26,161 nucleotides of DNA from a virus: the IMG/VR virus record IMGVR_UViG_3300027977_000172, positions 1-26,161 of that record, one strand, 5' to 3'. Of the stretch, positions 6,988-26,161 are shown piece after piece. The notes beneath the pieces were generated by a model. That model did no database searches, was not told the origin of the DNA, and was given only the letters and a program-made list of their open reading frames with translations. The position numbers and the translations under genes are program-made. Numbering within the stretch: the stretch's first letter is position 1; each line of letters starts with the position of its first letter.

Positions 6988-6994
6988 ATATCCT

Positions 6995-8227: not shown

Positions 8228-8249
8228 AGTATTAAAATTTATATTTATT

Positions 8250-8275: not shown

Positions 8276-8288
8276 TTTTAAAGAGGAA

Positions 8289-9618: not shown

Positions 9619-9673
9619 AAATTATTTATTGAAACTTAAAATCTGATTATAGTATAACTAATAAATTACAGAT

Positions 9674-10642
9674 ATGTCTATACAAAATATACTTCTTACA
9701 GAGAGATACAGGCCATCAACACTGGATGATTTAATAATACCTGACAGAATCAGAACAAAATTATCTGAAGGTGTTTACCAACATTTACTTTTTTATGGTT
9801 CACCAGGCACTGGCAAGACCAGTGCAGCAAAGGCTTTATGTACTCAATTTGGCCATGATTACAGATATATTAATGCATCTGATGAAACCAGTGTCGATGT
9901 AATTCGCGAGAAAATTACTAAATTCTGTACAACAGCTTCTTTGACTTCAATTGAAGGTAGACTTAAAATTGTTATTTTAGATGAAATAGACGGTGTCAGC
10001 GACCAGTTTAATAAAGCGCTAAAAGCAACCATGGATAGTTTTTCTAAAAACACAAGGTTTATTGCGACTACAAATCACATTAATAAAATACCTGAAGCTG
10101 TACTTAGTAGATTTGAACAAATTAATTTTGATTTTACAAAGGACGAAGAAGTAGAACAGCTTAAGTCATATATGAAGCGCGTATATGAAATTGTAAAGAA
10201 AGAGGGTTCAGATATCGAAAAGCCTGCACTATTGGAATTAGTGAAGCGAAAGTTTCCAGATATGAGAAACACGTTAACAGTATTACAGGGTTACATTGCC
10301 GAAGGCAAAACACTTATAACAATAGATGATGTCAAGAAATTCCACGGTATTTATAAAGATGTGTATGAACTTATATTTAATTCAATAGACCCGGTTGAAA
10401 ATTATAAACTATTGATATCACAGTATAGTAACAGAGTAGATGATGTATTGGCAAGCCTTGGGGCAGACTTCATAGAGTATATCAGACTTGAAAAGCCACA
10501 ATTCGCCAAATTTATCCCACAGATTATTATCACAGTTGCTGAACATCAAGCGCAACGAACGCTTGTTATCGATCAAGCAATAACCATGCTATCATGCGTC
10601 TATAGTATACAATCTATAGTAAATGCAAATAATCTGCAATAG
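9674..10642 (+). CDS. 44: Sliding clamp loader, large subunit (gp44)
   Basis: An AAA+ ATPase that opens and loads the gp45 sliding clamp at primer ends. Its 322 residues match T4 gp44 (319). LLTERYRPSTLDDLIIP at the start matches the EQKYRPSTIDECILP motif of T4. Walker A is GSPGTGKT (residues 42-49), Walker B ILDEID (101-106, with D103 and E104), sensor 1 is the ATTNH block near 131-135, and the arginine-finger motif is SRF (145-147) in place of the usual SRC. KRKFPDMRNTLTVLQGY (around 216-232) matches the KKNFPDFRKTIGEL part of gp44. The start codon lies in an A/T-rich divergent gap. RNase H and the probable small loader subunit follow. Confidence 0.92.
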   Translation: MSIQNILLTERYRPSTLDDLIIPDRIRTKLSEGVYQHLLFYGSPGTGKTSAAKALCTQFGHDYRYINASDETSVDVIREKITKFCTTASLTSIEGRLKIVILDEIDGVSDQFNKALKATMDSFSKNTRFIATTNHINKIPEAVLSRFEQINFDFTKDEEVEQLKSYMKRVYEIVKKEGSDIEKPALLELVKRKFPDMRNTLTVLQGYIAEGKTLITIDDVKKFHGIYKDVYELIFNSIDPVENYKLLISQYSNRVDDVLASLGADFIEYIRLEKPQFAKFIPQIIITVAEHQAQRTLVIDQAITMLSCVYSIQSIVNANNLQ

Positions 10643-10690
10643 TCTTTGAGTTTACAGAGATTATGTTTAAATTTACAAAAATAAAATATT

Positions 10691-11893: not shown

Positions 11894-12369
11894 TGGCTAA
11901 AAAGAAAAGAGAACTAAAAGAAAAAGTTAAAAAACCAAAGAGTGCTGAATACGATGGCACTCTTTTTAGTTTTGTTAAAATATTATTCAGCGACGATGCG
12001 GCTTATCAAAAACTTAGTCAATATGAAAAGGGCAAACACAGGTTTATGATACAGCGTTTCATGTCCATACAATATCCGACACTTGCCCATAAATTAAATG
12101 TTAACAAAACAAATCCGTCACATGTAGTTGATTGTTGGAAAGCTGTCGCAACTAGATATACAAGAACACCCAATTGGATATGGACAAGGGTCGACAGGTC
12201 AGAAAAGGTAAACGATAAGAAAATAGACATAGACCCAGAAGCGTTGAAATTTTATTTGAATAAATATCAAATAAGTAAAAAAGATTTTAGAGAAGCTTTG
12301 AAATTTAGTCCTGATTTAGTAATAAAAGAAATTGAAAGCATTGAAAAACAAATTAAAGCAGATGGGTGA
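11893..12369 (+). CDS. Probable clamp loader small subunit (gp62-like)
   Basis: A basic 158-residue protein translationally coupled to RNase H. The N-terminus is a Lys-rich tail, then LFSFVKILFSDDAAYQKL and KHRFMIQRFMSIQYPTLA (residues about 48-65). The 'FMIxRFxS' block is what I recall from distant T4-type phage proteins annotated as clamp loader subunit A (gp62). In T4 gp44 and gp62 work as a 4:1 complex and their genes are neighbours. The location two genes after gp44 supports this. Direct similarity to T4 gp62 itself is weak by eye. Alternatives are another replication accessory factor, such as a gp59-type helicase loader. Confidence 0.5.
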   Translation: MAKKKRELKEKVKKPKSAEYDGTLFSFVKILFSDDAAYQKLSQYEKGKHRFMIQRFMSIQYPTLAHKLNVNKTNPSHVVDCWKAVATRYTRTPNWIWTRVDRSEKVNDKKIDIDPEALKFYLNKYQISKKDFREALKFSPDLVIKEIESIEKQIKADG

Positions 12370-13021
12370 AGGCATTAATTATCCTAATCTTGATTTTCCG
12401 GCAGTTATTGATATAACACTTTATAAAAATAACTATTATGACAATTTACTCATAACAAAATTAAAACGGGACGCAGTTTACGAAGAACAACAGGGTGTTA
12501 AAGATACTTATCTAATCGGTGCTGACGATTTTAGAGAAGTTTTATATACATCTTTTATGAAAGAGATAGAAGCAGTGCGTTCATTGCCTTTATCAGACTT
12601 GCAAAAGAATGCTACAAGTCTTTATTTTCTTGATAAAATACTCACGAGTTATAATTCACTTAGATTTTTAAAAGTCAATGTTTCCAGAGAGGAGAATTTT
12701 TCAAGATTAAATAAAACAGAAAAGGTGCCTGTTATCTTTTTCAATTACAAGATTAGCATGTTGAATATCAGACTGCCTGAAATTTTTACAACCAAGCAAG
12801 TTAGAACCATTAATAAGTTTTTCATTGAAAACAGCATTGCCGTATATGATGAATTTTATGGCTACGATCACAGAATATATTTTAGGACTTCTGAGCTTCT
12901 AAGTTTTTTACTTTCAAGCGAAGAAAAGGATGGCGCAGCCGATCTATTACTGTCAATTATAGACAATAAGTCAGAATTAGACAACCCTCTTATTATGCTT
13001 GCTACCGATTTTGAAATTTAA
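12362..13021 (+). CDS. Unidentified protein downstream of clamp-loader genes
   Basis: I place the start at ATG 12362, which overlaps the upstream stop by 8 bases. An in-frame ATG at 12332 would add ten residues deep inside the upstream gene and is less likely. The 219-residue product starts MGEGINYPNLDFPAVIDITL. It is a mixed alpha/beta sequence with hydrophobic strands (KVPVIFFNYKISMLNIRLP) and a helical C-terminus (ELLSFLLSSEEKDGAADLLLSII). No signal peptide or membrane segment is visible. I do not recognise the family. Coupling to the replication genes suggests a replication or accessory role, but the next gene is structural, so context does not decide. Confidence 0.6.
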   Translation: MGEGINYPNLDFPAVIDITLYKNNYYDNLLITKLKRDAVYEEQQGVKDTYLIGADDFREVLYTSFMKEIEAVRSLPLSDLQKNATSLYFLDKILTSYNSLRFLKVNVSREENFSRLNKTEKVPVIFFNYKISMLNIRLPEIFTTKQVRTINKFFIENSIAVYDEFYGYDHRIYFRTSELLSFLLSSEEKDGAADLLLSIIDNKSELDNPLIMLATDFEI

Positions 13022-13026
13022 GCAAC

Positions 13027-13048
13027 TTGTCTATAAATATATAGACAA
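13027..13048 (+). promoter_or_regulatory. Palindromic late-promoter candidate with exact TATAAATA
   Basis: TTGTCTATA (13027-13035), AATA, TATAGACAA (13040-13048) is a perfect 9-bp inverted repeat enclosing TATAAATA (13032-13039), the T4 late promoter consensus. No T tract follows, so it is not a typical terminator. The ATG of the next gene is at 13061. The inner 18 bases differ in one position from an element at 23174-23191. Confidence 0.5.
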
Positions 13049-13060
13049 AGAAGTGCTTAT

Positions 13061-15004
13061 ATGACTAATTATATAGTTAATCAATTAGACGAATCTATTA
13101 TCATTAAACTTTCTGAACCTTATGAAAAGGTTGAGAAAGTTGTGGGATATGTTGATGAGGTTATCGGTGAAGATACAGTAAATAAATTTGAAAGATATTT
13201 TAGATGGTCACAAGACAATTCAAATTATTCAGATTGGATTTTAATGACCAATATCAATCTAGAAAATCAAATTATAGATCCCAAGAAGCCTTTCTGGATT
13301 GAATATAAGTATACTGTAATAGAACTTGAAACAGGTCATACCATGGAATTTATTTCAATTGCACTTGAAATAGTAACCGATAACGGAATAGTTCGCAATG
13401 TAAAACAGGTTAGCATAGACTGTTGTGAACCGGGCTCAATACCAACAGGATGTGCCAACTTAATTATACAAGAGTGCTGTGATGATGACAATACATTTAA
13501 TCCTTATAGTATGATGAGTAATACTATAGGCATGTTTACACAGCTTACAAACGTCACTAATAATATATTTGGCCACTGTGTCAAATATTTTAAAGTAGAT
13601 GCAGACCAAAGAAGCCGAGATGTTATATTAAAAGAATATTCTTTATATAATGTTAGTGCAATGAAAGAGATAAAAGTACTTGTTCCTGATAATAATTTTC
13701 CAGTAAATGAATTTCAGTTTAATCAATTTGGAATGGAATTTGAAAGTTTTGAAATTCATATTACCAGGGAAGAATTTCAAAATGCATTTGGTGCAAGAAC
13801 AAGACCCAATGAACGTGATTATATTTACTTTCCATTAGTTGATAGAATGTATGAAATTAATTCTATTGCTTTAGCTGACCCAATTTTCTATAAAGATATT
13901 TACTATAAAGCTACTTTACGTAAATACCAGGAGCGTGCAAATGTTACTGCAGATGAAATTATTACACAAGATCTTGATGCACTTACTCTTAGTGTAGATG
14001 AACTATTTGATGAGGAGGTAAAAGAAGAGACACTTAAAATAACAAAACCACAGCAGTATAAAACAATAGGCACAGGTGTAAATGATTTTGTTAGAAGTGA
14101 ACTTTCATCACAGCTTATAATTTCAGATTCTAAAATTAATAATAACTGGACTATTGTTTCTAAAAATTATTACGAATTCAATAAACTAAACCCAGGTGAG
14201 CTTGCAGTTAAATATAGACAGCCTGTTAAATTTGCTGATACTGAAGATAGAGCTTTCACATTTTGGTTTCAACCTGTTTTACCGGCCGAAAAGTCTTATA
14301 CTAATATAGATTCAATAACTGAATATGATGGCAAAGCAGCGTTGGTTATGTCGGCAGAAATGCCATGGCAAGCAGGCGACATTGTCCAAATTAACAACAC
14401 CGGTAATTATAATGGATATTACCGTATATTACAAATAAACACAGGTAATGAATTTGTAATAGATTTTAATTATGAAAGTATAAGTTCACCAGGAAGTGCA
14501 AGAGTTGTTTCAAAGGCATTTTTAATACATGGTTACGATGAACTGCCAAGTGGTTTCTCAGTTGAGTTAACAAGGCAGTATATGATAGTTTCAATAAACA
14601 ATCTTGACTATTTCTTTTTACACGGCATAACATTTGATAGTAACAAGTGGTATAGTACAGTAATCAATTTATCTAATCTTTTTACATCACTTTCAGTTTA
14701 TATTTATGAATTAGATAAACCGCTAAATAACATCAATCCTCAATTAGAAACAAGTGCACTTAAACTTTTATATAACAATTTAATTTTTATAAATGATAAA
14801 GTTTCTGTTGATTCAGGTGGCTACTGGTCTCTTGTCTCAGGGCCTATTAGATTAACAAACATTAGAATATTTAAGCGTATAATAGAAGAAGAAGCACACA
14901 ATATAGTATTAAATCAGTATGTTGTAAATGATACTCAATTAGCCGAATTAGTTGATAACGCTATACCTGAGTTACGTCTTTTACGTATACCTAATCCAAG
15001 ATAA
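13061..15004 (+). CDS. Structural protein, possible neck component (gp14-like segment) with a lectin-like C-terminal region
   Basis: A 647-residue protein with three visible parts. Residues 1-120 are beta-rich (FRWSQDNSNYSDWILM, like a fibronectin-type strand pattern). Residues about 120-142 form a Cys-rich patch (IDCCEPGSIPTGC, IQECCDDD). Residues about 150-295 contain FQNAFGARTRPNERDYIYFP followed by LVDRMYEINSI, resembling the 'RPxxGDxxYxPLxxRLFEI' block of T4 neck protein gp14. The C-terminal part (about 375-640) has RAFTFWFQPVLP, SVELTRQYMIVSINN and KWYSTVINLSN, a pattern like concanavalin/laminin-G-type jelly rolls. It lies just before the terminase genes, where T4 has gp13-14-15, supporting a neck or head-tail joining role. 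The lectin-like part is not found in T4 gp14 and could bind a surface glycan. Assignment is tentative. Confidence 0.55.
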   Translation: MTNYIVNQLDESIIIKLSEPYEKVEKVVGYVDEVIGEDTVNKFERYFRWSQDNSNYSDWILMTNINLENQIIDPKKPFWIEYKYTVIELETGHTMEFISIALEIVTDNGIVRNVKQVSIDCCEPGSIPTGCANLIIQECCDDDNTFNPYSMMSNTIGMFTQLTNVTNNIFGHCVKYFKVDADQRSRDVILKEYSLYNVSAMKEIKVLVPDNNFPVNEFQFNQFGMEFESFEIHITREEFQNAFGARTRPNERDYIYFPLVDRMYEINSIALADPIFYKDIYYKATLRKYQERANVTADEIITQDLDALTLSVDELFDEEVKEETLKITKPQQYKTIGTGVNDFVRSELSSQLIISDSKINNNWTIVSKNYYEFNKLNPGELAVKYRQPVKFADTEDRAFTFWFQPVLPAEKSYTNIDSITEYDGKAALVMSAEMPWQAGDIVQINNTGNYNGYYRILQINTGNEFVIDFNYESISSPGSARVVSKAFLIHGYDELPSGFSVELTRQYMIVSINNLDYFFLHGITFDSNKWYSTVINLSNLFTSLSVYIYELDKPLNNINPQLETSALKLLYNNLIFINDKVSVDSGGYWSLVSGPIRLTNIRIFKRIIEEEAHNIVLNQYVVNDTQLAELVDNAIPELRLLRIPNPR

Positions 15005-15005
15005 A

Positions 15006-15695
15006 ATGAGTGGAAAAAACAATTACAGAAAAAGATCAGACGAGATAAGATCTTCATTAGATGATATTTTAAATGACGACAGCGTAAACGCTTCTATTGA
15101 TTCAACACCTTTACCTCCTATTAGAACACAGCCAGCATTTGATTATGTTAAAAAGAAAGATGCTGCCAGCGAAAAGGCTAAAAAGACAATTAATTCTCTT
15201 TTAAAATTTTATCTTAGCGAGGAGATAATCGATAATGATGAATACGTTAAAGCTAAAATGAGAATTGAAGAGATGACTTTAGGTAGTCTTCTTTTTCAAA
15301 TGGAAACGGCTGAACGTGCAATAACAACTTTACTTCAACAAATAGATGACGGTGATGTTTCACCTCGTATGTTTGAGGTTTTAGGTACATTACAAAAGTC
15401 TATGTTAGATATCATCAAAAGCCAGACTATGTATATGATAGCAACCGAAGAGGGTGTTAAAAAGCTGGCAAGAGATTATGACGTTTATTCACAGCGCAAG
15501 CTTGCCAAGGACGAGGATAGTAAAAAGATACAAGCTGCAACAAACGTTAACAGGGGCACCAAGAACTTAATGATGCAAATACAAAATAACATCAATAAAC
15601 AAGAGGATTTAGATTCAATAGAAGCTGAACCTCTTAATACTGAAATGGATGACTTCCCCAGTGAAATAGATAATTTCGAGGACTATGACGAATGA
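15006..15695 (+). CDS. 16: Terminase small subunit (gp16-like)
   Basis: Regulates DNA packaging by the large terminase and helps DNA recognition. I start it at ATG 15006, one base after the preceding stop; the in-frame ATG at 14952 lies inside the previous gene and adds a hydrophobic stretch unlikely to be real. The 229-residue product (T4 gp16: 164) has a basic, Ser/Asp-rich N-terminal tail and a central helical domain. VSPRMFEVLGTLQKSMLDIIKSQTMY matches the pattern of [24 protein letters not shown] in T4. The acidic C-terminus (MDDFPSEIDNFEDYDE) is suited to contact with the large subunit. It overlaps the large terminase start by 11 bases, as is common for this pair. Confidence 0.78.
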   Translation: MSGKNNYRKRSDEIRSSLDDILNDDSVNASIDSTPLPPIRTQPAFDYVKKKDAASEKAKKTINSLLKFYLSEEIIDNDEYVKAKMRIEEMTLGSLLFQMETAERAITTLLQQIDDGDVSPRMFEVLGTLQKSMLDIIKSQTMYMIATEEGVKKLARDYDVYSQRKLAKDEDSKKIQAATNVNRGTKNLMMQIQNNINKQEDLDSIEAEPLNTEMDDFPSEIDNFEDYDE

Positions 15696-18117
15696 TTTTT
15701 TACCTACATCTTTTAATTCTGAACCTGAAACAGAACAGCAGGACAGAGTAGTCTGGTCGACGGCCGAGGTTCAGCGAATTATAGCAGCACTTGACGAGGG
15801 TTATAAAGTCAAGGGTACACCTTTTTACGAGGGTAACATGAGCTATAAGCGTGCTAATATTGTATTTGAATATACAGATGAGGAAATGGAGCATATCAAA
15901 CGATGCGCTTCTGATATTCTATACTTTGCTGAGCATTTTGCAACTGTTATGACAGACGAAGGTCTTCAGCGAATCAAACTGAGAGACTATCAAAAGGGCA
16001 TGTTGGTTAGCTTTGTAGAGAACAGGTTTAATGTATGTTTGGCGTCTCGACAAATCGGCAAATGCCTGGCACACGATACAGATATATATATAAGAAAAGA
16101 AGGTCGAGAATACATGATTAAAATGTACGAGCTCTGGTACTTAATGGTCAAGAATGCCGAACTACCATTTGCCAATCGATTAATCAACCGTATTAAATAC
16201 CATTTGTATCGAGCCCATTCTCGTCTAAATAAAATTTATGAATTATTAATAAATATTTTACTTTTTCTTATTCAGACTGTTGAAAAAATTGAATACAGGC
16301 ATTTTAGTCTTGACCAAGATGACATCAGTAAGAAAATATTAAGTTCATATAATTTACAGGGCTATGAAGTTATGACTGATTCTGGTTTCAAGCCCATGAG
16401 TCATCTTCATGTCACGCAGCCTTATGTAAACTGGAATATTAGAACCGCATCTGGTCTTTATCTAAATGCTGCAGATAATCATATAGTATTTAAACAAGGT
16501 CTTGTTGATACATTTATTAGAGATTTAAAGCCTGGTGATTTTATACATACTGTAAATGGTGTCGAGGCAGTTACTCATATTGAAAAAGGTCAACATTCAA
16601 TATCAATGTTTGATGTTACTGTTGATGATGAAAATCATAGATTTTATAGTAATGGCATATTATCGCATAACACTATTTGTTCTGCAATCTTTATTTCCTG
16701 GTATCTGCTTTTTAATTTTGATAAAAATGCACTTCTACTTTCAAATAAGGGCGGTACAACCAAGGAAATTCTTGATAAAGTAAAAGCCATTATAGAAAAT
16801 TTACCTTTCTTTTTAAAGCCAGGTATTTTAAAGAATGATGTCATGAACATGAAATTCGATAATGGCTGTCGAATGGTTGGTCAATCTACAACAGGTAAAG
16901 CAGGTATTGGTTTTACTATACATCTTCTTTTCCTGGATGAGTTTGCTCATATACATCATAGCTTTATAAATAGTTTTTATGAAAACGTTTATCCAACGCT
17001 TTCATCTTCAAAGGTATCACGTATTATAATTACCAGTACACCTAACGGCTATAATAAATTCTTTGAGATCTATGATGGCGCTGAAAAGAAACTCAATGAA
17101 TTTTCACCTTATCGCGTCGACTGGTGGCAGGTACCTGGTCGTGATGAAAAATGGAAATTACAGGAGGTTAAAAATCTCGGTAGCGAAGAGGCGTTTAATA
17201 GACAGTATGGAAACCAGTTCATGGCTTCCAGCAATCTTCTACTTACAGGTGCTTCAATTAAAAAACTGAGAACAGGACAAAAGAAATTTACATTTGTTGA
17301 ATTTGAAGAGTTTGAAAGAATTTCAATTGACGTGTCAAGATTTATGGTTTTCAGTCCTGATTATGTTGACGCCGATTTTAAAGATCGTAATAGATACTGG
17401 GTCTTTTGTATAGATATTGCAGAAGGCGTAGGAGGTGACTACAGTGTAATCAATATTTTTGAAATAGTACCCATGCAAAAGAAAGACTTTAATAGAATCT
17501 TGACACCGAGTTCTATTAATGAGTTCTTTGCACTAAAACAGGCAATTGTTTTTAGAAGCAATGAACACAGTGTAGAGGATTTATCAAAAATTTTATATAC
17601 ATTGGTAATAGATGTCTTCTATCAGGAGAACATCAAAATTGTAATTGAATATAATACCTATGGCTCAACTGTCATCAATCACTTAGCTACAGTCTTTCCT
17701 CAGCGAAATGAATTTGACGAGGAAATGGTTGTAAAATTTAAACACAGGCATGATGCCAGAAATACTAAGTTCGGTCTTAAAATTAAACGTGATAATAAAC
17801 CCATACTCTGTCAAAATCTTAAAAAATCAATTGAGCAAAATAGAATGTTTATAACAGATGATATGACAGTCAATGAGCTGAGTTCATTTGGTAGAACTAC
17901 AGCAGGTTTATACATGGGGCAAATGGGACATGACGATCATGTTATGACCTGTGTTTCAGCCACTGAATTTTTTGCAACAGTTGACTATTCAGACTTTGTC
18001 GAAGAGATACTTGATATCATAGACGAAGACCTGTATGATGCCATGGAAGCTGAACTTGAAAAGACGACCAAGGACAAAGACGGTAATATCTACTACGACA
18101 TTTACGACATAATTTAG
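15685..18117 (+). CDS. 17: Terminase large subunit (gp17) containing an intein
   Basis: The packaging ATPase/nuclease. The 810-residue precursor minus a 203-residue intein gives 607 residues, matching T4 gp17 (610). The ATPase domain starts with VVWSTAEVQRIIAAL. Walker A is split: SRQIGK before the intein, TICSAIF after it (compare SRQLGKTTV in T4). Walker B is LLFLDEF (D418, E419 of the precursor), and TSTPNG near 451 is the coupling motif. The RNase H-like nuclease has D577 in FCIDIAEG, E655 in VIEYNTYG and D750/D751 in GHDDHV. The protein can only be active after splicing because the Walker A Thr is the +1 extein residue. It overlaps the small subunit gene upstream and ends with TAG. Confidence 0.93.
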   Translation: MTNDFLPTSFNSEPETEQQDRVVWSTAEVQRIIAALDEGYKVKGTPFYEGNMSYKRANIVFEYTDEEMEHIKRCASDILYFAEHFATVMTDEGLQRIKLRDYQKGMLVSFVENRFNVCLASRQIGKCLAHDTDIYIRKEGREYMIKMYELWYLMVKNAELPFANRLINRIKYHLYRAHSRLNKIYELLINILLFLIQTVEKIEYRHFSLDQDDISKKILSSYNLQGYEVMTDSGFKPMSHLHVTQPYVNWNIRTASGLYLNAADNHIVFKQGLVDTFIRDLKPGDFIHTVNGVEAVTHIEKGQHSISMFDVTVDDENHRFYSNGILSHNTICSAIFISWYLLFNFDKNALLLSNKGGTTKEILDKVKAIIENLPFFLKPGILKNDVMNMKFDNGCRMVGQSTTGKAGIGFTIHLLFLDEFAHIHHSFINSFYENVYPTLSSSKVSRIIITSTPNGYNKFFEIYDGAEKKLNEFSPYRVDWWQVPGRDEKWKLQEVKNLGSEEAFNRQYGNQFMASSNLLLTGASIKKLRTGQKKFTFVEFEEFERISIDVSRFMVFSPDYVDADFKDRNRYWVFCIDIAEGVGGDYSVINIFEIVPMQKKDFNRILTPSSINEFFALKQAIVFRSNEHSVEDLSKILYTLVIDVFYQENIKIVIEYNTYGSTVINHLATVFPQRNEFDEEMVVKFKHRHDARNTKFGLKIKRDNKPILCQNLKKSIEQNRMFITDDMTVNELSSFGRTTAGLYMGQMGHDDHVMTCVSATEFFATVDYSDFVEEILDIIDEDLYDAMEAELEKTTKDKDGNIYYDIYDII
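16063..16671 (+). other. Intein (203 residues) inserted in Walker A of the large terminase
   Basis: The Hint-type splicing element runs from Cys127 to Asn329 of the precursor. Block A is CLAHDTDIYI with the nucleophilic Cys. Block B is LYLNAADNHIVF with His266; the usual Thr of T-x-x-H is Ala here. DLKPGDFI (280-287) is the GD turn. Block F is FDVTVDDENHRFYSNG, and block G is ILSHN with penultimate His328 and terminal Asn329, followed by Thr330 as the +1 residue. Only about 35 residues separate block B from block F, so no homing endonuclease is present. Instead, a helical, partly hydrophobic segment (about 148-222) lies between A and B. Insertion exactly at GK^T is typical of inteins that target conserved ATP-binding loops. 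Confidence 0.92.
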
Positions 18118-18141
18118 GTTATTAATGACAATAAAAGGGGT

Positions 18142-18378
18142 GTGAATAACCCACAATATGGTAAAAGCTGTAAAAATCATGCTGCATCGAAGACCAGAAT
18201 TTTAAAATGTCCAGACGGTGGTGAAATGGTATTTGATGAAGTTGGACCATTGAAGGAATATCTTTATGGCGTTAGTGTTAGTTATAATACATTGAGGCAA
18301 TATTCTAAAAAAGGTAAAAATTATTGCGGATATTTTCTTGAGGCCAAGAAGATATATAACAAAAATAAAAATAACTAA
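18142..18378 (+). CDS. Small NUMOD-like protein between terminase and sheath
   Basis: A 78-residue basic protein reading from GTG 18142, behind AAAAGGGG, a possible ribosome site; no ATG occurs before residue 29. It contains ILKCPDGGEMVFDEVGPLKEYLYG and LRQYSKKGKNYCGYFLEAK. The pattern 'F-D-x-V/I ... L ... NTLRxYxKxGK..YxGYFxE' resembles NUMOD1-type DNA-binding modules found next to HNH homing nucleases. No nuclease domain is present, so it may be a remnant of a homing element or a small DNA-binding protein of its own. It is in the same frame as the terminase, beyond its TAG stop. The family call is tentative. Confidence 0.45.
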   Translation: MNNPQYGKSCKNHAASKTRILKCPDGGEMVFDEVGPLKEYLYGVSVSYNTLRQYSKKGKNYCGYFLEAKKIYNKNKNN

Positions 18379-18383
18379 TAACA

Positions 18384-21300
18384 ATGGCATTATCAGCAGA
18401 ATTATTACAGTTCAAGAGTTCGGGAGTCTACCGACTTGAATTTGACAAGAGCCAGACAGCTACTATTCCTAGCGACCAAATAAGAATGGTGGTAGGTTTC
18501 TCTAAAGACGGCCCCTTCAACACGCCGGTATTCGTATCTGACTCTGGATTTTTCACCAATATTTATGGTGACATTGATAGAACACTTGAAAGAAAAGGTT
18601 CTTACTTTCACAGAACTGCACTTGCGGCACTTGAAAGAGGTCCAATTCTTGCGCTTAATTTACTGAGACTTAATAACGACTCAGAATCAGGTGACAAGGT
18701 TCAATATCAAACATTTTCAGTTAGCGCAACAGGTGTTAACGCAGCAGAGAAGTCTGCACTTTATTCAGGTTTCTACAACAAGGATAAATTCTGGTTTCCA
18801 CAAGATCTTCCTTTCTTAAATAACATTGGTTCAACAAACACAGGTGTTATTCAAGTTGTAAATCTTAAACAATCTCCAGTAACAGTCTTTATGCGTAAAG
18901 CACAAGACGTAAAAGCATTTGATGTGCTTGCTAAACAATGGTATGGTTCTGGTAAAGTACCAGCATTCATGAATGAATTTGATTATATTAGCGACTTCAT
19001 GATTGACGTGTTTATCGTTGATGGCGACTTTACAAACTATGCATCACTTGCAGTTGATCCAATCTTTGGAGCATTCTTTAATGTAAACGGTCTAATTAAA
19101 AGCAAACTTGACAACTTCTTAAATTCACCAAATGTAACTTATCTTGCTAAGTATACAGGATGTCTTATTCCTGACTTCATAGACTTGAACGGTAATAACT
19201 TGTTTATTCAAGACATGATTAACTTTGATACAGCTAAGACTGGTATTTTATCAGCAGTAAACAAAGAGGTATTTGATTCAGATTATATTATCAGCGGTAC
19301 TGAAGATGGTGTCGATTTAGTTGGTCACAATTTAGAAAATAAATTAAATAACGACTCAACTTTTACACAACTTGATTTTATCTCTTATAATAGAGGTTTA
19401 AAAGAAGATTACTATTACCAAGCTTCTGAAACAGGTGAAGTAGGAATTGATGTTAATACAGCAGGTGATATTTCTTTTTACCTTACTGCAAGCGGTGAAA
19501 GTACAGCAAGTCAAACGCCTCCTAGTGTGGCAACTGCTCAACTACCAGCTTCACTTGGAGCTAACATCGCAAACTATGTAGTTAAAATAAACAAGGATCA
19601 CCCTGATTATGCTACACTTTTAGAAGACAGGCTTTCAGCTAACGTTGCAGGTGTAGGAATTGGCCAGCGTGCAGTAGGTTCTTATGTTTTAGTTGATAAT
19701 GGATCAACATATAAATGGGCACCAGTTGTTTCATTGACTGAAGCATCAGGTTATCTATATGTTGGAGTTTCAATTGAAGTTACAGGATATGTTGTATCAC
19801 TTGAAGCATCACAAGTATGGTTTATTTACGAGCCAAGTGGTTCAGATTATGATGTATCAGCTACAGACTATTTTAAATTTGAGTACGGAAGTCAGACTTA
19901 CAAAGACTGGAGCGCAGGTGTTATTACCAGTGGCGATGTTGTAAGACTTGCATCTGCACAAGATACCAACGTGTATTTGAATATGACATGGGCACTTAAT
20001 AATAGCGTATATACAAATGACGGTTCAGCAGCAGGTGCATCAACAGTGCTTTCAGCAGCTTCAACAAATTATTACAATGTACCAGTTGTAGAAATTAAAG
20101 GTTATTCAGACGCTGCTCTTACTACAGCTATAAATTTACCTGACTATACAGGTAACAATTATGTTAACTCATCTGCAGTAGTACAAACAAATAAATTCAC
20201 AGTAATTTCTCTTATTGGCTCACTTAATGAGTCACTTACACTTGCAGCAGTATCACAAATTGCTTTACCAGGTAATGAAGTTTATCTTGATTACACTTCA
20301 GCTAACGGAAATATCAGCGTAGGACAATACTTAGTATCTAGTGAATTAGGTCCAAATGGAGAATCTCGCTTAACTAAAGTAAACAAGATTTCTAAGCAAA
20401 CTGTAAGTAGCATAACCGTTTTACATGTTTATACAGATCAGGATATTTTAATAACTAGCGGAACATCAGTAGAGCGATATAACACAATTGAATCTGTAAT
20501 AACAGAATATAAATTATTCTCTCTTGCTGGATTTACAATGAATCCTAACTATCATGTTCCTAACGGCACAGAAGATAGAATGAATGAAATTTTTAACGAT
20601 ACAATAGGCGGAGGTACAAATCTCTTTACCGGTCTTATCGATAAAGATCTTATTTCTTATCGTTACATTGTTGATTCATTTGGTTTAGGTATTGAGCCTC
20701 AATCTAAATACCAGTTAAGTTATCTTGCTAAGTCTCGTCAAAACGTGCTAGCAATTATTAATGCACCTTCAATGCAAGACTTCCGTGAATCTACTGATCC
20801 TAGATTTACTGACGACACCGGAACTCTTCGTACTCGATACATTGCAGAAGGTGGTAGATTAGATTTGAATCCTACAACCACTTATGGTTTACCTAGTATC
20901 GCTAATGGTTCTAGCTACAGTGCATATTATTCACCTTATCTAATAATAAGAGACAGAGGTAAGAATTTAGCAGTACCGCCTGCAGGTTATGTTTCTAATA
21001 ACTTTATTGACAAGTATACAAATGCTTTACCTTGGTCAATAGTAGCAGGTCCACGTAGAGGAGTAGTAGGAGGAAGAGGTCTTATTGGCTTAGAAGTTAA
21101 CTTTGATAAAAATGACAGAGATAATATCGAGCCATTTGGTTTAAATCCAATTATCTTCCAAAGAGGAATCGGAATTGAAATCCATGGTAATAAAACAGGT
21201 CAGCAAAATATCAAGTCTGCACTTTCTAGTGTACATGTTCGTGAAGTATTAATTTACATGCAAGATGGTATTGCTTCTATATTAAAGAACTATACATTTG

Positions 21301-21551
21301 AATTTAATACACCTCAAACACGTTTAGAAATTAAATCACTTGCAGATAATTTTATGCTAGGTGTTAAACGCGATAACGGTGTCTATGATTTTAAAAATGT
21401 AATGGATACGAGCAATAATACGCCTGACGTAATTGATGCTAATATCGGTATACTTGATACCTATGTAGAGCCAGTAAAAGGATTAGAAATACTAGTACAT
21501 AGAACAACTATCTTGAAGACAGGTTCTATCGCTACAGGTCAATTCTCTTAA
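18384..21551 (+). CDS. 18: Contractile tail sheath protein (gp18)
   Basis: Forms the contractile tube around the tail. The N-terminus has GVYRLEFDKSQTATIPSDQIRMVVGFSKDGPFNTPVFV, matching the start of gp18 sheath proteins in spread motifs (GVxxxExDxSxxxxxxxxxxxxxVGxxxxGPxxxPxxV). The C-terminal lock domain has PWSIVAGPRRGVVGG, FGLNPIIFQRGIGIEIHGNKT, SALSSVHVREVLIYMQDGI and EFNTPQTRLEIKSLADNFM. At 1055 residues it is about 400 longer than T4 gp18 (659). The extra length is a Ser/Thr/Ala/Gly-rich, beta-type region roughly from residue 300 to 740, probably an enlarged protruding domain on the outside of the sheath. The terminator follows 10 bases after the stop. Confidence 0.92.
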   Translation: MALSAELLQFKSSGVYRLEFDKSQTATIPSDQIRMVVGFSKDGPFNTPVFVSDSGFFTNIYGDIDRTLERKGSYFHRTALAALERGPILALNLLRLNNDSESGDKVQYQTFSVSATGVNAAEKSALYSGFYNKDKFWFPQDLPFLNNIGSTNTGVIQVVNLKQSPVTVFMRKAQDVKAFDVLAKQWYGSGKVPAFMNEFDYISDFMIDVFIVDGDFTNYASLAVDPIFGAFFNVNGLIKSKLDNFLNSPNVTYLAKYTGCLIPDFIDLNGNNLFIQDMINFDTAKTGILSAVNKEVFDSDYIISGTEDGVDLVGHNLENKLNNDSTFTQLDFISYNRGLKEDYYYQASETGEVGIDVNTAGDISFYLTASGESTASQTPPSVATAQLPASLGANIANYVVKINKDHPDYATLLEDRLSANVAGVGIGQRAVGSYVLVDNGSTYKWAPVVSLTEASGYLYVGVSIEVTGYVVSLEASQVWFIYEPSGSDYDVSATDYFKFEYGSQTYKDWSAGVITSGDVVRLASAQDTNVYLNMTWALNNSVYTNDGSAAGASTVLSAASTNYYNVPVVEIKGYSDAALTTAINLPDYTGNNYVNSSAVVQTNKFTVISLIGSLNESLTLAAVSQIALPGNEVYLDYTSANGNISVGQYLVSSELGPNGESRLTKVNKISKQTVSSITVLHVYTDQDILITSGTSVERYNTIESVITEYKLFSLAGFTMNPNYHVPNGTEDRMNEIFNDTIGGGTNLFTGLIDKDLISYRYIVDSFGLGIEPQSKYQLSYLAKSRQNVLAIINAPSMQDFRESTDPRFTDDTGTLRTRYIAEGGRLDLNPTTTYGLPSIANGSSYSAYYSPYLIIRDRGKNLAVPPAGYVSNNFIDKYTNALPWSIVAGPRRGVVGGRGLIGLEVNFDKNDRDNIEPFGLNPIIFQRGIGIEIHGNKTGQQNIKSALSSVHVREVLIYMQDGIASILKNYTFEFNTPQTRLEIKSLADNFMLGVKRDNGVYDFKNVMDTSNNTPDVIDANIGILDTYVEPVKGLEILVHRTTILKTGSIATGQFS

Positions 21552-21560
21552 TGACTTAAT

Positions 21561-21593
21561 ATAAAAGCCCAGGTTAAATCTGGGCTTTTATTT
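21561..21593 (+). terminator. Terminator after the tail sheath gene
   Basis: ATAAAAGCCCAG (21561-21572) pairs with CTGGGCTTTTAT (21580-21591) around a 7-base loop, with a T run in the 3' arm. It may reduce readthrough between sheath and tube. Confidence 0.88.
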
Positions 21594-21602
21594 AAAATAC
21601 AA

Positions 21603-21615
21603 CAATATATAAAAA
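21603..21615 (+). promoter_or_regulatory. Candidate late promoter upstream of the tail tube
   Basis: CAATATATAAAAA lies between the sheath terminator and the tube ATG at 21629, matching the recurrent AATATATA element. The spacing to the ATG is about 15 bases. Placement right after a terminator supports it. Confidence 0.35.
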
Positions 21616-21628
21616 TAAACAAATAAAA

Positions 21629-22183
21629 ATGGCAGGTTTACCACATTATAATAACTCTAGCGCAGCTACTCAAAAATATGAACCAGTACAAGGTAATCTC
21701 TTTGAAGTTACATTTTTCCCGCCAGCGGGTGTTACAGGTCAATCACTTTTACTTGAACATGTTAATACAGTCGGTGGTTTAAGTGCTCTTAACCCTACTA
21801 TAGATCCTGTTGGTCAAAAATATAAATTTGCAGACAGGAGCTATGCAGGAATGCCAGCACAAACATTTGTAGATGTTGCTATCAATTTTTCATTAAACTT
21901 AAATGATTCAAATCAGAATTATATCTACAAATCTATAAGAGACTGGTATAAAAAAATCTATGATCCAGCAACAGGTGCAATGGGTCTTAAGAAAGATTAT
22001 AGCGGATCAATTGTAGTCGTTATGTACGATCGTCAAGGAAACATCCACAGAAAGGTAACACTTCTTGATACTTTCCCAACGGGCAATCCAGCAGCATTTG
22101 ATAGTTTAGATTATAACGCACCAGATCCATTAACATTGGATATTACATTCCGTTGTGATAACTGGATAGATGAAAACAACTAA
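21629..22183 (+). CDS. 19: Tail tube protein (gp19)
   Basis: Builds the inner tube that the sheath contracts around. The 184 residues compare with 163 in T4 gp19. GNLFEVTFFPP near residues 22-32 corresponds to PNLFQVEISYL. INFSLNLNDSNQNYIYKSIRDWYKKIYDPATG corresponds to the VMNDEAHDARQKFVDW part. The end, TLLDTFPTGNPAAFDSLDY then DPLTLDITFRCDNW, corresponds to IKGLWPTNVGELQLDWDSNN and FEVTLALDYW. It directly follows the sheath, as in T4. The A-rich leader ends AAATAAAAATG. Confidence 0.92.
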   Translation: MAGLPHYNNSSAATQKYEPVQGNLFEVTFFPPAGVTGQSLLLEHVNTVGGLSALNPTIDPVGQKYKFADRSYAGMPAQTFVDVAINFSLNLNDSNQNYIYKSIRDWYKKIYDPATGAMGLKKDYSGSIVVVMYDRQGNIHRKVTLLDTFPTGNPAAFDSLDYNAPDPLTLDITFRCDNWIDENN

Positions 22184-22185
22184 AC

Positions 22186-22207
22186 AATCTAAATATATAG
22201 ATTATAA
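22186..22207 (+). promoter_or_regulatory. Candidate late promoter upstream of internal protein 1
   Basis: AATCTA (22186-22191) and TAGATT (22198-22203) form an inverted repeat around AATATA, giving AAATATATAG, then TATAAAA-like bases. The following leader is nearly the same as that of the second internal protein gene at 23180-23209. Confidence 0.4.
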
Positions 22208-22223
22208 AAACAAAAAAAACAAA

Positions 22224-23132
22224 ATGAAGTACATTAAAACATTTGAAAGCTTCTTGAATGAAAGCTATTTATTTGAAGCCGCTGCCAAAACAGCATACAG
22301 GGTTAAAGTTAAAAAGGGTGAACAAACACTGGCTTATCTTGCTGTAAAAGGTTCACCTAATTATAGTCTTGTTCCATCAGTTGCAAAGGCGATAGGTGCT
22401 AAAGAAACAGAAATATACTATATTAACCCACCTAAACCTACTATGGATTTAGCAATAGAGGAATTAACATCTGTTGGTAAATTTACCAATGTTAGTGATA
22501 AAGAGTTGTCTTCTGAAGGTTTTAAGATGGGCACATATAAGGGACATAAATTTTTAGCAGACATGGCTTCTGATGGCCATGTTCATTGGATTTTTCTCAA
22601 AAAAGATCTTGTAGACAAGCTAGCAAGCGAACTTGATTTCATGAACATGAATGAAAGCTATTTATTTGAAGCTAACGAGCTTAATGGCATAAAAAAGATG
22701 ACTGATATAATAATGAATAGCAGACAGTCAATGCTTACAAAAAAATATGAAAAATTTGTAAACATGACTCTTAAAGACAATAAAGTTTCAAAAATTGAAG
22801 ATTTAAACCCAGATGGATTAGAAGACTGGATGGTCGATTTAGAAGAACTAATTGATGATTATGGAGGACAAACAGGCATTAAAGAGTACGTTGAAATGAT
22901 AGAGCGTATAGAACAGCTTGAAAAGGCGATCAAAGACAGCGGTAATAAACAGGCTATAGGTGAATTAGATAAATTAATGAAACCATTTGTAAAACCAGGC
23001 AAAACGCTGGATGATATTAATGATGAAGAAAATGTAGCAGACATTCTTTTTATGCTTGAAGAAGACGATGAAGAAAGTCCATTTCTTAAATACGGTATCA
23101 AAATGCCAAAAGCGGTTAAGAAAAAGAAATAA
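22224..23132 (+). CDS. Probable internal head protein 1 with capsid-targeting peptide and duplicated junction
   Basis: I start it at ATG 22224, behind an A-rich leader; an in-frame ATG at 22170 overlaps the tube gene and is unlikely. The 302-residue product begins MKYIKTFESFLNES. In T4, internal proteins carry a similar N-terminal targeting peptide (MKTYQEFIAEA) cut by gp21 after (I/L)-x-E. Here L11-N12-E13 fits. Residues 14-139 form one alpha/beta part (AYRVKVKKG, GHKFLADMASDGHVHWIFLKK). At 142-150 MNESYLFEA repeats residues 12-19, with 25 identical bases, and a second, charged helical part follows to a Lys-rich end. I infer an injected or packaged head protein. The enzymatic role, if any, is unknown. 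Confidence 0.65.
   Translation: MKYIKTFESFLNESYLFEAAAKTAYRVKVKKGEQTLAYLAVKGSPNYSLVPSVAKAIGAKETEIYYINPPKPTMDLAIEELTSVGKFTNVSDKELSSEGFKMGTYKGHKFLADMASDGHVHWIFLKKDLVDKLASELDFMNMNESYLFEANELNGIKKMTDIIMNSRQSMLTKKYEKFVNMTLKDNKVSKIEDLNPDGLEDWMVDLEELIDDYGGQTGIKEYVEMIERIEQLEKAIKDSGNKQAIGELDKLMKPFVKPGKTLDDINDEENVADILFMLEEDDEESPFLKYGIKMPKAVKKKK
22255..22279 (+). repeat. 25-base direct repeat, copy 1 (targeting-peptide junction)
   Basis: The 25 bases from TGAATGAAAGC to TTTGAAGC encode NESYLFEA at the first cleavage-like site. The same 25 bases recur at 22648-22672 in the same frame, 393 bases (131 codons) later. Confidence 0.95.
22648..22672 (+). repeat. 25-base direct repeat, copy 2 (internal junction)
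   Basis: Identical to 22255-22279 and in the same frame. It encodes MNESYLFEA, joining the two halves of internal protein 1. The site reads M-N-E where copy 1 reads L-N-E. Confidence 0.95.
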
Positions 23133-23143
23133 CTTTAATTTTC

Positions 23144-23173
23144 AAAAAGGCCCTCTTACTGAGGGCTTTTTAT
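23144..23173 (+). terminator. Terminator after internal protein 1
   Basis: AAAAAGGCCCTC (23144-23155) pairs with GAGGGCTTTTT (23161-23171) with one bulged G and a five-base loop, followed by TAT. It lies 11 bases after the stop. Confidence 0.8.
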
Positions 23174-23196
23174 GTCTACAAATATATAGACTATAA
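23174..23196 (+). promoter_or_regulatory. Palindromic late-promoter candidate upstream of internal protein 2
   Basis: GTCTA (23174-23178), CAAATATA, TAGAC (23187-23191), then TATAAAA. The 18-base core differs at one position from 13029-13046 upstream of the neck-like gene. It begins directly after the terminator T tract and lies about 19 bases before the ATG at 23210. Confidence 0.5.
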
Positions 23197-23209
23197 AAAT
23201 AAAAACAAA

Positions 23210-23668
23210 ATGAAGTACATTCATACATTTAAAAACTTCTTAAATGAGGGTAAAAAATCTATAACTATTAAAAAATTATCTGATCCTACTGAACAGCTAG
23301 ATGAAGATTTACAGAAGATGGCCAATGATATTGAAAGCCTGATTGAGTCAATAAACAATGAATTTTATTCAAAGAAATTTAGAAGAACGTGTCTAGCCGA
23401 TGTGCTAAACCTTAGCGAATTACTACAAAGTAAAATAGAAGGTAAAACCTTTAAAAAGTCTAAACCTGTGATGGCAGACGACTTTAGAGGGTTTAGCAAT
23501 GATGATCTGGAAGAAAGATTTGAAGATGCAGCTGACAGTATTGATGTACGTATTCAACCAATGCTTGCTATTGAATCAATGGATATTAAACAAGAATGCC
23601 TAACTCTCATGGAACAATTTATCGATAAATGGGATATTATGATCGAAAAGGAAGATAAGAAAAATTAA
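23210..23668 (+). CDS. Probable internal head protein 2 with capsid-targeting peptide
   Basis: A 152-residue protein beginning MKYIHTFKNFLNEGKK, the same 13-residue targeting-type peptide as internal protein 1, with L-N-E ending at residue 13. The leader is also nearly the same as in that gene. The remaining 139 residues are a charged helical domain (LQKMANDIESLIESINNEFYSKK, ESMDIKQECLTLMEQFIDKWD) with no membrane segment. By analogy with T4 internal proteins it would be packed in the prohead, trimmed by the gp21-type protease, and possibly injected with the DNA. I do not recognise the mature domain. Terminators flank the gene on both sides, so it is its own transcription unit. Confidence 0.65.
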   Translation: MKYIHTFKNFLNEGKKSITIKKLSDPTEQLDEDLQKMANDIESLIESINNEFYSKKFRRTCLADVLNLSELLQSKIEGKTFKKSKPVMADDFRGFSNDDLEERFEDAADSIDVRIQPMLAIESMDIKQECLTLMEQFIDKWDIMIEKEDKKN

Positions 23669-23679
23669 TTATAAAAAGT

Positions 23680-23708
23680 AAGACCTGTCAGTTAACAGGT
23701 CTTTTTTA
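23680..23708 (+). terminator. Terminator after internal protein 2
   Basis: AAGACCTGT (23680-23688) pairs with ACAGGTCTT (23695-23703) around a 6-base loop, followed by a T tract. It lies 12 bases after the stop. Confidence 0.88.
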
Positions 23709-23718
23709 TGTCTGCTGA

Positions 23719-23753
23719 CCAATATATACTATGTTAGTATAATACTATAAATA
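23719..23753 (+). promoter_or_regulatory. Candidate late promoters upstream of the gp26 unit
   Basis: CCAATATATAC (23719-23729) matches the recurrent element, and an exact TATAAATA occurs at 23746-23753, 13 bases before GTG 23766. Either could serve the small gene and the gp26/gp51-like genes. Both follow the terminator at 23680-23708. Confidence 0.4.
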
Positions 23754-23765
23754 AATTTAAAATGA

Positions 23766-23936
23766 GTGGAAAAAGAAAAACTTACAGAACGTGTACAAGT
23801 CCTACTTTCAATAGAAGATCTACAAGATCTATATCTTATACTAAATAGAAAGTCTCTTGAAAAAAATATAAAACCCGAAACAGTTTCAAGCTGTATACGT
23901 AAAATAACAAAAAAATTCATTAACGAAAACAAGTAA
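23766..23936 (+). CDS. Small helical protein with GTG start, upstream of gp26-like gene
   Basis: The 56-residue frame starts at GTG 23766 and ends with TAA one base before the gp26-like ATG. It begins VEKEKLTERVQVLLSIEDLQ and continues with NRKSLEKNI and a basic end (CIRKITKKFINENK). The amphipathic, protein-like composition and the tight junction with the next gene support it. An in-frame stop (TGA 23763-23765) lies directly before the GTG, so no earlier start is possible. An ATG at 23762 reads a different frame of only 28 codons. No family recognised; a small baseplate assembly factor would fit the context. Confidence 0.6.
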   Translation: MEKEKLTERVQVLLSIEDLQDLYLILNRKSLEKNIKPETVSSCIRKITKKFINENK

Positions 23937-23937
23937 C

Positions 23938-24930
23938 ATGGCAGATGAAAATTTAAACCCAGATGAAATGAAAAAAATCATTGAAGAACAAGAAAAGCAA
24001 GTGCATATAGATGATCCTTATATTGCTACAGCAAATCAAATGTCCGAATCAGCAAAGACACAGGGCTTAGGTAAAGTTAATCTAGGAAGAAGAGATGGCG
24101 AAGATGTCAATTCAGATATCTTATTGGGCTACCACACTGTCTTTACAGAAGATATGCCATCAGGAGGCTTATTTTATCCAGTTGATGTAGAAATACAAAT
24201 CAGGCCAGCCAAAGTCGCAGAGATTAGACATTTTTCAACATTACAAGAGCGAGATCTTTTTGACATTGACGATAAGCTAAATAATATTATACAGAATTGT
24301 ACTAAAATAAAAACTAAAACCAGGGTAATGAGCTGGAAAGATATTTTAGAAGAGGATAGAATTTTCTTGATTCTTGCTATACGTGCTCTTACTTTTAGTA
24401 AAGGTGAAAATAAATTACAGGTAAAAAAGAATTGTGCTGATTGTAATACAGAAAACGAAATTGAAATCGCTAATAGAAATTTACAGTTCAATACAATACC
24501 TGAAGACTTGATGAAATACCATGATGAATTCGAAAGAGTACTTTCAATTCAAACCAAGTCTTGTGGCGTTATTAAAATGAAACCACCTACAATTGGTGTA
24601 ATGCAAGCTGTTACTAAATACATTCGTGAAAAAGAAAGAAACGGTGAAAACTGGGACAAATCACATATTCAAATACTTCCCTATATCAGACATGAGTGGA
24701 GAAACTTTACTGACAAAGATATATTTAATAGTGAAGTAGAATTCCAGGGATGGGGTGATACTAAGTATACACTTCATTATCGCTTGGCTGAACAGATTAA
24801 AGTAGGTGTTAAACCAGATGTAAGATGTAGTTGTAAAGCTTGTGGCGCTGAGGTCGCCGCAGCAATAAACTTTCAAGGCGGAATCAAAGATCTTTTCGTT
24901 GTTTCAGATATCTCTGGAGAACTTCTTTAA
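23938..24930 (+). CDS. 26: Baseplate hub assembly protein, gp26-like (T4_baseplate family)
   Basis: A 330-residue protein with an acidic N-terminus. Residues about 60-110 (YHTVFTEDMPSGGLFYP, VDVEIQIRPAKVAEI) and the block after them resemble the core of the T4 gp26 / T4_baseplate family: a glycine-rich turn, an 'IxIRP' strand, then helices with LIL-type repeats (IFLILAIRALTF). Two Cys pairs, CADC near residue 167 and CSCKACGAE near 301, suggest a zinc-binding site; phage homologues often have a C-x-x-C...ENEIEI strand exactly as here (NCADCNTENEIEI). T4 gp26 is about 208 residues, so this version is longer at both ends. The following gp51-like gene overlaps it, matching their shared role in hub assembly. 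Confidence 0.65.
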   Translation: MADENLNPDEMKKIIEEQEKQVHIDDPYIATANQMSESAKTQGLGKVNLGRRDGEDVNSDILLGYHTVFTEDMPSGGLFYPVDVEIQIRPAKVAEIRHFSTLQERDLFDIDDKLNNIIQNCTKIKTKTRVMSWKDILEEDRIFLILAIRALTFSKGENKLQVKKNCADCNTENEIEIANRNLQFNTIPEDLMKYHDEFERVLSIQTKSCGVIKMKPPTIGVMQAVTKYIREKERNGENWDKSHIQILPYIRHEWRNFTDKDIFNSEVEFQGWGDTKYTLHYRLAEQIKVGVKPDVRCSCKACGAEVAAAINFQGGIKDLFVVSDISGELL

Positions 24931-25198
24931 AACTAAATTCTATCTATATCATTACCTAAGGTTACAGTCTTCAGAAATTGAAGACTGGCCTTATTATGAA
25001 CTTGAGTATACCTTAGAAAACTTAAAAGACTTCTTGGAAAAGAAAAAGAAAGGTGAAGAAGAGGAAAATGATAAGTATAAAAATGACTCATCATATAGAA
25101 AGCAAAAAACTGATGTTGGCAAGTCAATAAATACACCAAAGATGCCAAGCGCTCCAAGGATTAGTGCACCTAGTTTTAGAGCGCCCAAAAAATTCTAA
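24899..25198 (+). CDS. 51: gp51-like baseplate hub assembly factor
   Basis: The 99-residue frame begins inside the gp26-like gene at TTG 24899; there is no ATG in frame, and the next upstream stop is at 24866-24868. A CTG at 24914 is another possible start. The segment NFFKTKFYLYHYLRLQSSEI with DWPYYELEYTLENLKDFLEK resembles short gp51-type chaperones of T4-like phages (helix, then acidic/aromatic 'WPYYExEY' block). An acidic/Lys-rich linker and a basic Pro/Ala tail (MPSAPRISAPSFRAPKKF) follow. In T4 gp51 catalyses baseplate hub assembly and is not in the virion. Overlap with gp26 supports the call. Start codon and family remain uncertain. Confidence 0.5.
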   Translation: MFQISLENFFKTKFYLYHYLRLQSSEIEDWPYYELEYTLENLKDFLEKKKKGEEEENDKYKNDSSYRKQKTDVGKSINTPKMPSAPRISAPSFRAPKKF

Positions 25199-25204
25199 TA
25201 TTTA

Positions 25205-26161
25205 ATGGCTTTCAGTGCAATTAAAAACCCATTCGAGAATCTTTCCATACAGAACCAGGAAAAAATGGTTAAAAGCTTATCTGAAATAAAGGACTACTTT
25301 ATTTCCGGTAATTCAATTGTCGAGTCTATTAATGAAATAGGTAATTACTTAAAAACATTTGTTAGCAACCAGACTAAAATACTGGACTTTTTAACTAAAA
25401 AGGATGCCAAGCAGCTTAGTTCTAAAGATCAGCAGGAAATGGTTAAAACAGCTAAGCTATTAGGGCCTGGTCTAAAATTAATTGTAGACGCTATACAGAC
25501 CTATTCTAAAATACCTGAAGAAGCAGTTGATAAATTTGTATTAGGTATAGAAAAAATAGGAGATGCATTTAAAAAGCTTTCATCTCTTAACAAGGCTATA
25601 GAAAGCGGCGCAGAAGCACTAATATCACTTGGTAAATCAATATTTTGGTTCGGTGTATTAATGATATTGTCATTACCTGTTTATTTATTAGCTGCAGTGG
25701 CCGGTCCAATTGTCATGTTGGTTGTAGCTGGTCTTGTTTGGTTATTTGTTAATACTGTTGGTAAATATGCCGATGATATTGAAAGTGGTTCTAAGAATCT
25801 TATGTATATGGCTGCTAGTATAATACTATTCGGTATTGCAATTCTAGTAGCAGCACAACTATATGGTCAAATATTGGCAGGCATTCTTGGTATTTTAGCA
25901 ATATACGCTGTCATAACCATGACAGTATTCTTTTTTACATTTATTTCAAAATACATTAAAGATATAAAAAGCGGTTCTAAGAATCTTATGTATATGGCTG
26001 CTAGTATAATACTATTCGGTATTGCAATTCTAGTAGCAGCACAACTATATGGTCAAATATTGGCAGGCATTCTTGGTATTTTAGCAATATACGCTGTCAT
26101 AACCATGACAGTATTCTTTTTTACATTTATTTCAAAATACATTAAAGATATAAAAAGCGGT
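25205..26161 (+). CDS. N-terminal part of a membrane-hairpin repeat protein, tape-measure candidate
   Basis: The gene starts at ATG 25205, six bases after the previous stop, and stays open for 319 codons to the window edge. Residues 1-130 are soluble and helical (NPFENLSIQNQEKMV, IGNYLKTFVSN). From about 135 come strongly hydrophobic units: a diverged 60-residue unit (GAEALISLGKSIFWFGVLMI...), then a 62-residue unit at 195-256 and an identical one at 257-318. Each has about two membrane-length segments (ASIILFGIAILVAA; LAGILGILAIYAVITM) and ends with a basic stretch (ISKYIKDIKS). A third copy starts at the edge. Phage tape measure proteins often have hydrophobic segments and repeats, and the gene follows hub assembly factors, so a gp29-type or hub-associated role is plausible but unproven. 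Confidence 0.6.
   Translation, partial: MAFSAIKNPFENLSIQNQEKMVKSLSEIKDYFISGNSIVESINEIGNYLKTFVSNQTKILDFLTKKDAKQLSSKDQQEMVKTAKLLGPGLKLIVDAIQTYSKIPEEAVDKFVLGIEKIGDAFKKLSSLNKAIESGAEALISLGKSIFWFGVLMILSLPVYLLAAVAGPIVMLVVAGLVWLFVNTVGKYADDIESGSKNLMYMAASIILFGIAILVAAQLYGQILAGILGILAIYAVITMTVFFFTFISKYIKDIKSGSKNLMYMAASIILFGIAILVAAQLYGQILAGILGILAIYAVITMTVFFFTFISKYIKDIKSG
25787..26161 (+). repeat. Perfect 186-bp tandem repeat (two full copies plus the start of a third)
   Basis: Bases 25787-25972 and 25973-26158 are identical over 186 bp; both begin GGTTCTAAGAATCTTATG. The repeat is in frame (62 codons). The last three bases of the window (GGT) are the first bases of a third copy. Synonymous positions show no divergence, in contrast to the diverged unit before it, which implies recent duplication, gene conversion or an assembly artefact. 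Confidence 0.95.

Follow-up and report, generated by a model that had tools for sequence, protein, structure and literature searches.

A probable tape-measure gene built from 62-residue hydrophobic modules, with a possible one-unit expansion, at the end of a T4-like phage contig

The window analysed here, which is the whole of the IMG/VR record IMGVR_UViG_3300027977_000172 (26,161 bp), ended inside a gene that probably encodes a tape-measure protein. The last part of this gene carried two identical copies of a 62-codon segment, and the duplicated stretch coincided exactly with a single unit of an array that is itself old and diverged. A modular tape measure with a real one-unit expansion was the best overall explanation, and it is put forward with modest confidence. 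The coordinates of the features are given in Table 1.

Table 1. Features of the window and, in the last row, of the closely related sister contig.
Feature	Position	Strand	Evidence or remark
T4-type prohead protease (S77)	3484-5145		
Tail sheath, 1055 aa	18384..21551	+	PHROG 34521 tail sheath, 4e-120; Pfam Phage_sheath_1C
Tail tube protein	21629..22183	+	PHROG 45 and 4542 tail tube, ~5e-10
gp26-like tail assembly chaperone / baseplate hub, 330 aa, end CTT TAA	23938..24930	+	PHROG 150 baseplate hub, 6.9e-11; Pfam T4_baseplate PF12322
gp51-like protein, +1 frame, overlaps gp26 stop; candidate frameshift extension	24899..25198	+	PHROG 634; same overlap in relatives
Probable tape-measure gene, 5' part (319 codons), truncated by contig end	25205..26161	+	Open-ended ORF; complete 1128-aa version in sister
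Hairpin unit 1 (predicted), diverged, ~60 aa, end KYADDIESG	25610..25786	+	Unit profile match; boundaries approximate
Hairpin unit 2 (predicted), copy 1, 62 codons, SKNLMYMAAS...KDIKSG	25787..25972	+	Identical to 25973-26158; two hydrophobic segments
Hairpin unit 2 (predicted), identical copy 2	25973..26158	+	Exact repeat; missing from sister contig
GGT (3 nt), contig end	26159..26161	+	Continues repeat, not sister exit; sister has GGC here
Complete homologue of the probable tape measure, 1128 aa	L002:10001-13387 (sister)		Sister contig ORF

The repeat at the end of the window was a perfect direct repeat of 189 bp, in which positions 25787-25975 were equal to 25973-26161, and the spacing of 186 bp was exactly 62 codons. 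An exact match of this length was far beyond a chance origin. Tandem Repeats Finder located the repeat at 25775-26161 with a period of 186, 2.1 copies, 98% matches, and a score of 753. The repeat was in frame with the open ORF, which ran to the contig end without a stop. Hence, the original prediction of a perfect in-frame 186-bp tandem repeat with two identical 62-codon copies was verified, and the diverged unit of about 60 residues that it placed before them agreed with the sequence. The profile match of this first unit corresponded to residues 138-197 of the sister ORF, in a numbering with two residues ahead of the Met, whereas the register of unit 2 was set at the nucleotide breakpoint. 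The expected start of a third copy was present, but it amounted to only 3 nt (GGT), and the contig and the record terminated there. Of the last 20 bases in the flanks of the breakpoint, 12 were alike (AAAGTGG/AAAGCGG), which has a probability of 0.005 by chance. The identity of the two copies had been ascribed to very recent expansion or to ongoing homogenisation. Ongoing homogenisation was rejected because the remaining units of the array were strongly diverged, with nucleotide identities of 25-54%. A very recent expansion was consistent with the data provided that copy 2 is real, but the sister contig was single-copy.

The identity of the repeat protein was evaluated from its gene neighbourhood and its homologues. 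The gene order was sheath, tube, gp26, gp51, and repeat gene, and the terminase was also located upstream. The PF12322 match of the gp26-like protein reached 38 bits against a cut-off of 24.5, and the match of the gp51-like protein to PHROG 634 (hub assembly catalyst, 0.00068) covered profile positions 60-119 of 121. Genes for such chaperones commonly lie ahead of the gene for the tape measure (PMC3556154). Vladimirov et al. (2022), cited in PMC10274946, identified the chaperones for tail assembly in T4-like phages; these are described there as one short and one longer gene, and the genes meant are read as 26 and 51. Homologues of the repeat protein were found at the corresponding position in the Chryseobacterium phages MA9V-1 and MA9V-2 and in the Sphingomonas phage PAU. 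The homologues of MA9V-1 and MA9V-2 had 1082 residues each, and the tails of these phages are 170.34 nm (PMC10537231) and 166 nm (PMC13414440) long, respectively. The resulting values of 0.157 and 0.153 nm of tail per residue matched an alpha-helical ruler, which the tape measure of phiCbK also obeys (PMC3556154); the two phages are close relatives and represent one independent point of length against tail, and the ratio belongs to the homologues rather than to the window phage. The tape-measure identity on which the original prediction was built was supported by the synteny, the chaperone pair, and the agreement of length and tail in the homologues.

The repeat protein had no match in PHROGs, Pfam, or PDB, nor to T4 gp29; no family match for a holin or transporter was obtained for it, and a scan of genome contigs found no relatives. 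The lack of a match to any tape-measure family, T4 gp29 included, and the number of hydrophobic segments across the homologues (11 to 24), which was large for a tape measure, would fit some other large tail protein, membrane-bound or injected, from a gene adjacent to that of the tape measure. However, the gene lay directly after the gp26/gp51 pair, the chaperones of T4-like phages as far as the citation in PMC10274946 describes them, and the ratio of length to tail in the two homologues was that of a ruler. Moreover, tape measures diverge past recognition, as in the case of T4 gp29 (PMC2147016), so membership of the protein is compatible with the missing family match, and five transmembrane helices are predicted for the diffocin tape measure (PMC10996793). 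A neighbouring membrane or injected protein was regarded as unlikely, and the repeat protein was considered a likely tape measure.

The gp51-like +1 frame overlapped the gp26 stop in the window (region 24877-25198) and in all relatives examined. The last 17 gp26 codons had zero synonymous change among the window, L011, and L013, whereas 40% of the conserved codons were unchanged overall. The stop context CTT TAA was shared by the window, L007, L011, L012, L013, and the L011-like contigs, and it varied in the other relatives. These features of the sequence suggest a candidate programmed +1 frameshift in the tail chaperone pair. Alternatively, gp51 may be initiated inside the overlap at TTG or ATG, and such starts were present there in some relatives. 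A title cited in PMC10274946 reports that T4-like phages rely on a mechanism distinct from frameshifting, and a frameshift in the present phages would depart from it. In L025 (Prevotella phage Lak-B5), the gp51-like +1 frame at ~7795-8189 was open only when an in-frame TAG was read as an amino acid. Lak phages have a recoded genetic code, which fits this TAG.

Other genes of the window were also inspected. Two different proteins encoded between the tube and gp26 genes, starting at 22224 and 23210, had near-identical starts (MKYIKTFESFLNE / MKYIHTFKNFLNE), and the two starts were ~86% alike over 71 nt. The shared start peptide is reminiscent of the capsid-targeting propeptide of the T4 internal head proteins, and a T4-type prohead protease (S77) is encoded at 3484-5145. 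Among the head genes, positions 8289-9122 matched the PHROG 'alpha-2,3-sialyltransferase' (6e-41), and the Pfam match (MptE-like) was only sub-threshold.

The array was characterized in the complete sister protein, which had a strong 62-residue period over residues 130-620. The mean BLOSUM62 score at lag 62 was 0.759, whereas the best-lag mean for shuffles was -0.37 +/- 0.06. Each array unit contained two hydrophobic stretches, and the hydropathy profile of the 1130-residue sister ORF had 15 peaks, which are predicted helices of transmembrane length. The hairpins claimed for the repeat, for which a membrane prediction had been proposed as a check, were thus backed by the hydropathy and the 62-residue period as hydrophobic two-helix units. 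Insertion of these units into a membrane is predicted from the hydropathy and from an ambiguous charge bias, as K and R numbered 38 in the between-unit loops vs 9 in the within-unit loops (24 units), and the between-unit loops were longer and also richer in acidic residues. The predicted structure was mostly helical, but its mean pLDDT of 42 was too low to indicate the fold.

The number of units differed among the relatives. The unit profile gave five units for the sister (L003) and L012, six for L011, and eight for L013, with a marginal ninth match in the last. In the unit tree, units 2-5 of L013 formed one clade (support 0.965), with units 3 and 4 being 88% identical, and across the four phages the last units grouped with one another (0.998). 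This grouping indicated that the L013 lineage had separately expanded the inner array, at the position that is duplicated in the window (unit 2). Tandem Repeats Finder detected 186-, 192-, and 222-bp repeats in this gene of L011, L013, and L007, and the L007 (LR756500) homologue had 1801 residues and 24 hydrophobic peaks. The differing unit numbers and the L013 expansion at the same place in the array indicate that growth by single units is recurrent in this family, whatever the status of the window copy. Three near-identical contigs from different IMG/VR datasets (L011, L022, and L023) all had six units, indicating that the copy number was not generally labile. A second type of tandem repeat, with a period of 309 bp (103 residues) and 75% matches, was observed in the C-terminal part of another homologue (L012:12231-12945), and the sister protein contained diverged copies of this C-terminal repeat 282 bp apart.

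The reality of the second copy was explored by comparison with the sister contig, IMGVR_UViG_3300028553_000043 (48,350 bp), which was the one close relative from the IMG/VR protein search. The sister had 3 mismatches in 19.4 kb relative to window positions 6591-25974; the mismatches, at 6717, 7627, and 7630, fell in the region 6591-15941, and the two contigs were identical over 15205-25974. In the sister, unit 2 occurred once and was followed by GGC GCA GAA leading into a diverged unit 3, and the exit sequence after unit 2 was GGCGCAGAA. As far as the sequences tell, the window and the sister are nearly one phage, and copy 2 is what separates them. The junction pattern of the tandem copies had no match in IMG/VR, in which the nearest records were perhaps outside the search scope, and the exit-pattern search was uninformative since it used GGTGCTGAA and not GGCGCAGAA of the sister.

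The question of assembly raised by the original prediction was justified, as the contig stopped at the repeat and the sister was single-copy. A contig end no more than 3 nt from a unit boundary has a probability of ~2% by chance, and with this end so close to the end of the repeat, no read-through proved copy 2. Contig breaks were therefore modelled with k-mer unitigs. The single-copy genome gave no break at any k tested, genomes with at least two copies broke at most k unless k exceeded the repeat, and no modelled contig ended at 26161; the exact end presumes an extra repeat-resolution step, with or without a true duplication. If unit 2 were single-copy, a graph loop, formed for example by chimeric reads joining similar unit boundaries, would have been walked once before the contig broke. 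Such an artefact would agree with the termination 3 nt beyond copy 2, with the straight assembly through a single copy in the nearly identical sister, and with the breakpoint flanks, which shared GG only and partial similarity, as is frequent in chimeras. However, the k-mer graph of a single-copy genome had no break here, and the loop requires reads that span the junction. The artefact is hence a distinct possibility, although its likelihood is put below even. It is quite improbable, on the other side, that both phages have at least two copies and that the sister assembly collapsed them. Exact 186-bp tandem copies are longer than the k-mers commonly used, and an assembler can collapse them; the contigs are otherwise nearly identical, but the sister passed through the locus unbroken, though any k <189 should have broken a multi-copy locus there. 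The contig end suggests a graph loop with support from some reads, which may derive from true variants or from chimeras. The duplication is thus either a copy-number change of very recent date or a loop in the assembly graph, with a slight lean to the real variant, and the chance of a fresh exact duplication in the window is estimated as even or a little better.

In the favoured reading of a modular tape measure with a real expansion, the gene would be the tape measure of a T4-like (jumbo-type) phage, probably with a host among the Bacteroidota, to which the hosts of the relatives (Chryseobacterium, Tenacibaculum, and Prevotella) point. The protein would consist of an N-terminal helical part, the tandem 62-residue two-helix modules, and a C-terminal part that contains separate repeats. 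Unit 2 would most likely have been doubled via recombination or slippage between equivalent points of neighbouring diverged modules; an exchange between such equivalent places would add exactly one unit and keep the frame. If real, this would be a very young expansion by one unit, adding 62 residues and, provided that the protein is helical, ~9 nm of tail. The array would be stretched inside the tail tube during assembly and would help to set the tail length. During ejection, these hydrophobic modules could insert into the inner membrane of the host, where they could form the lining of the DNA path. That near-identical natural phages differ by one whole hairpin module of the tape measure, so that tail length and the number of membrane helices shift together stepwise, is proposed tentatively.

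Tape measures tolerate changes in length, and the natural evolution of tail length is mostly inferred. A tape measure with internal repeats, as found here, is already known. Within the searches made, the apparently new feature is that the repeat unit itself would be a hydrophobic two-helix module, the number of which varies among relatives. One gene family would then represent a modular ruler, with a unit number that varies from relative to relative and perhaps even between phages that are nearly identical. If this is true, tail length is coupled to the membrane-crossing part, and the relatives with 5, 6, and 8 units form a natural series for both roles. Furthermore, a likely tape measure is pinpointed for a group of jumbo phages whose corresponding gene carries the annotation hypothetical.

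The window protein was compared with known systems. As in T4, genes of the gp26/gp51 type adjoined the tail genes, but genes 26 and 51 of T4 are separate and on opposite strands, whereas in the window gp51 overlapped gp26 in the +1 frame, and T4 gp29 (590 aa) had no detectable similarity to the window protein. MA9V2_061, MA9V1_009, and PAU gp97 shared with the window protein a homologous C-terminal region (E down to 1e-14), the hydrophobic array, the position in the tail cluster, and a similar size; they differed in a weaker period (~60 residues), with no recent duplication seen, and they are annotated merely as hypothetical protein or gp97. The diffocin tape measure CD1366 is likewise a ruler of a contractile tail with several predicted transmembrane helices, for which membrane insertion or a pore has been proposed, but its helices number five, and a modular tandem array is not mentioned in the excerpt of PMC10996793. 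The tape measure of TP901-1 is also a large tail protein with internal tandem repeats and hydrophobic segments, and the loss of its repeats or of its first hydrophobic region shortens the tail (PMC5099701). In TP901-1, the aromatic-marked repeats of 11/18 aa are separate from the two hydrophobic regions (PMC5099701), whereas in the window family repeat and hydrophobic region coincide, as the two-helix hydrophobic module (62 aa) recurs in 5 to 8 recognisable copies.
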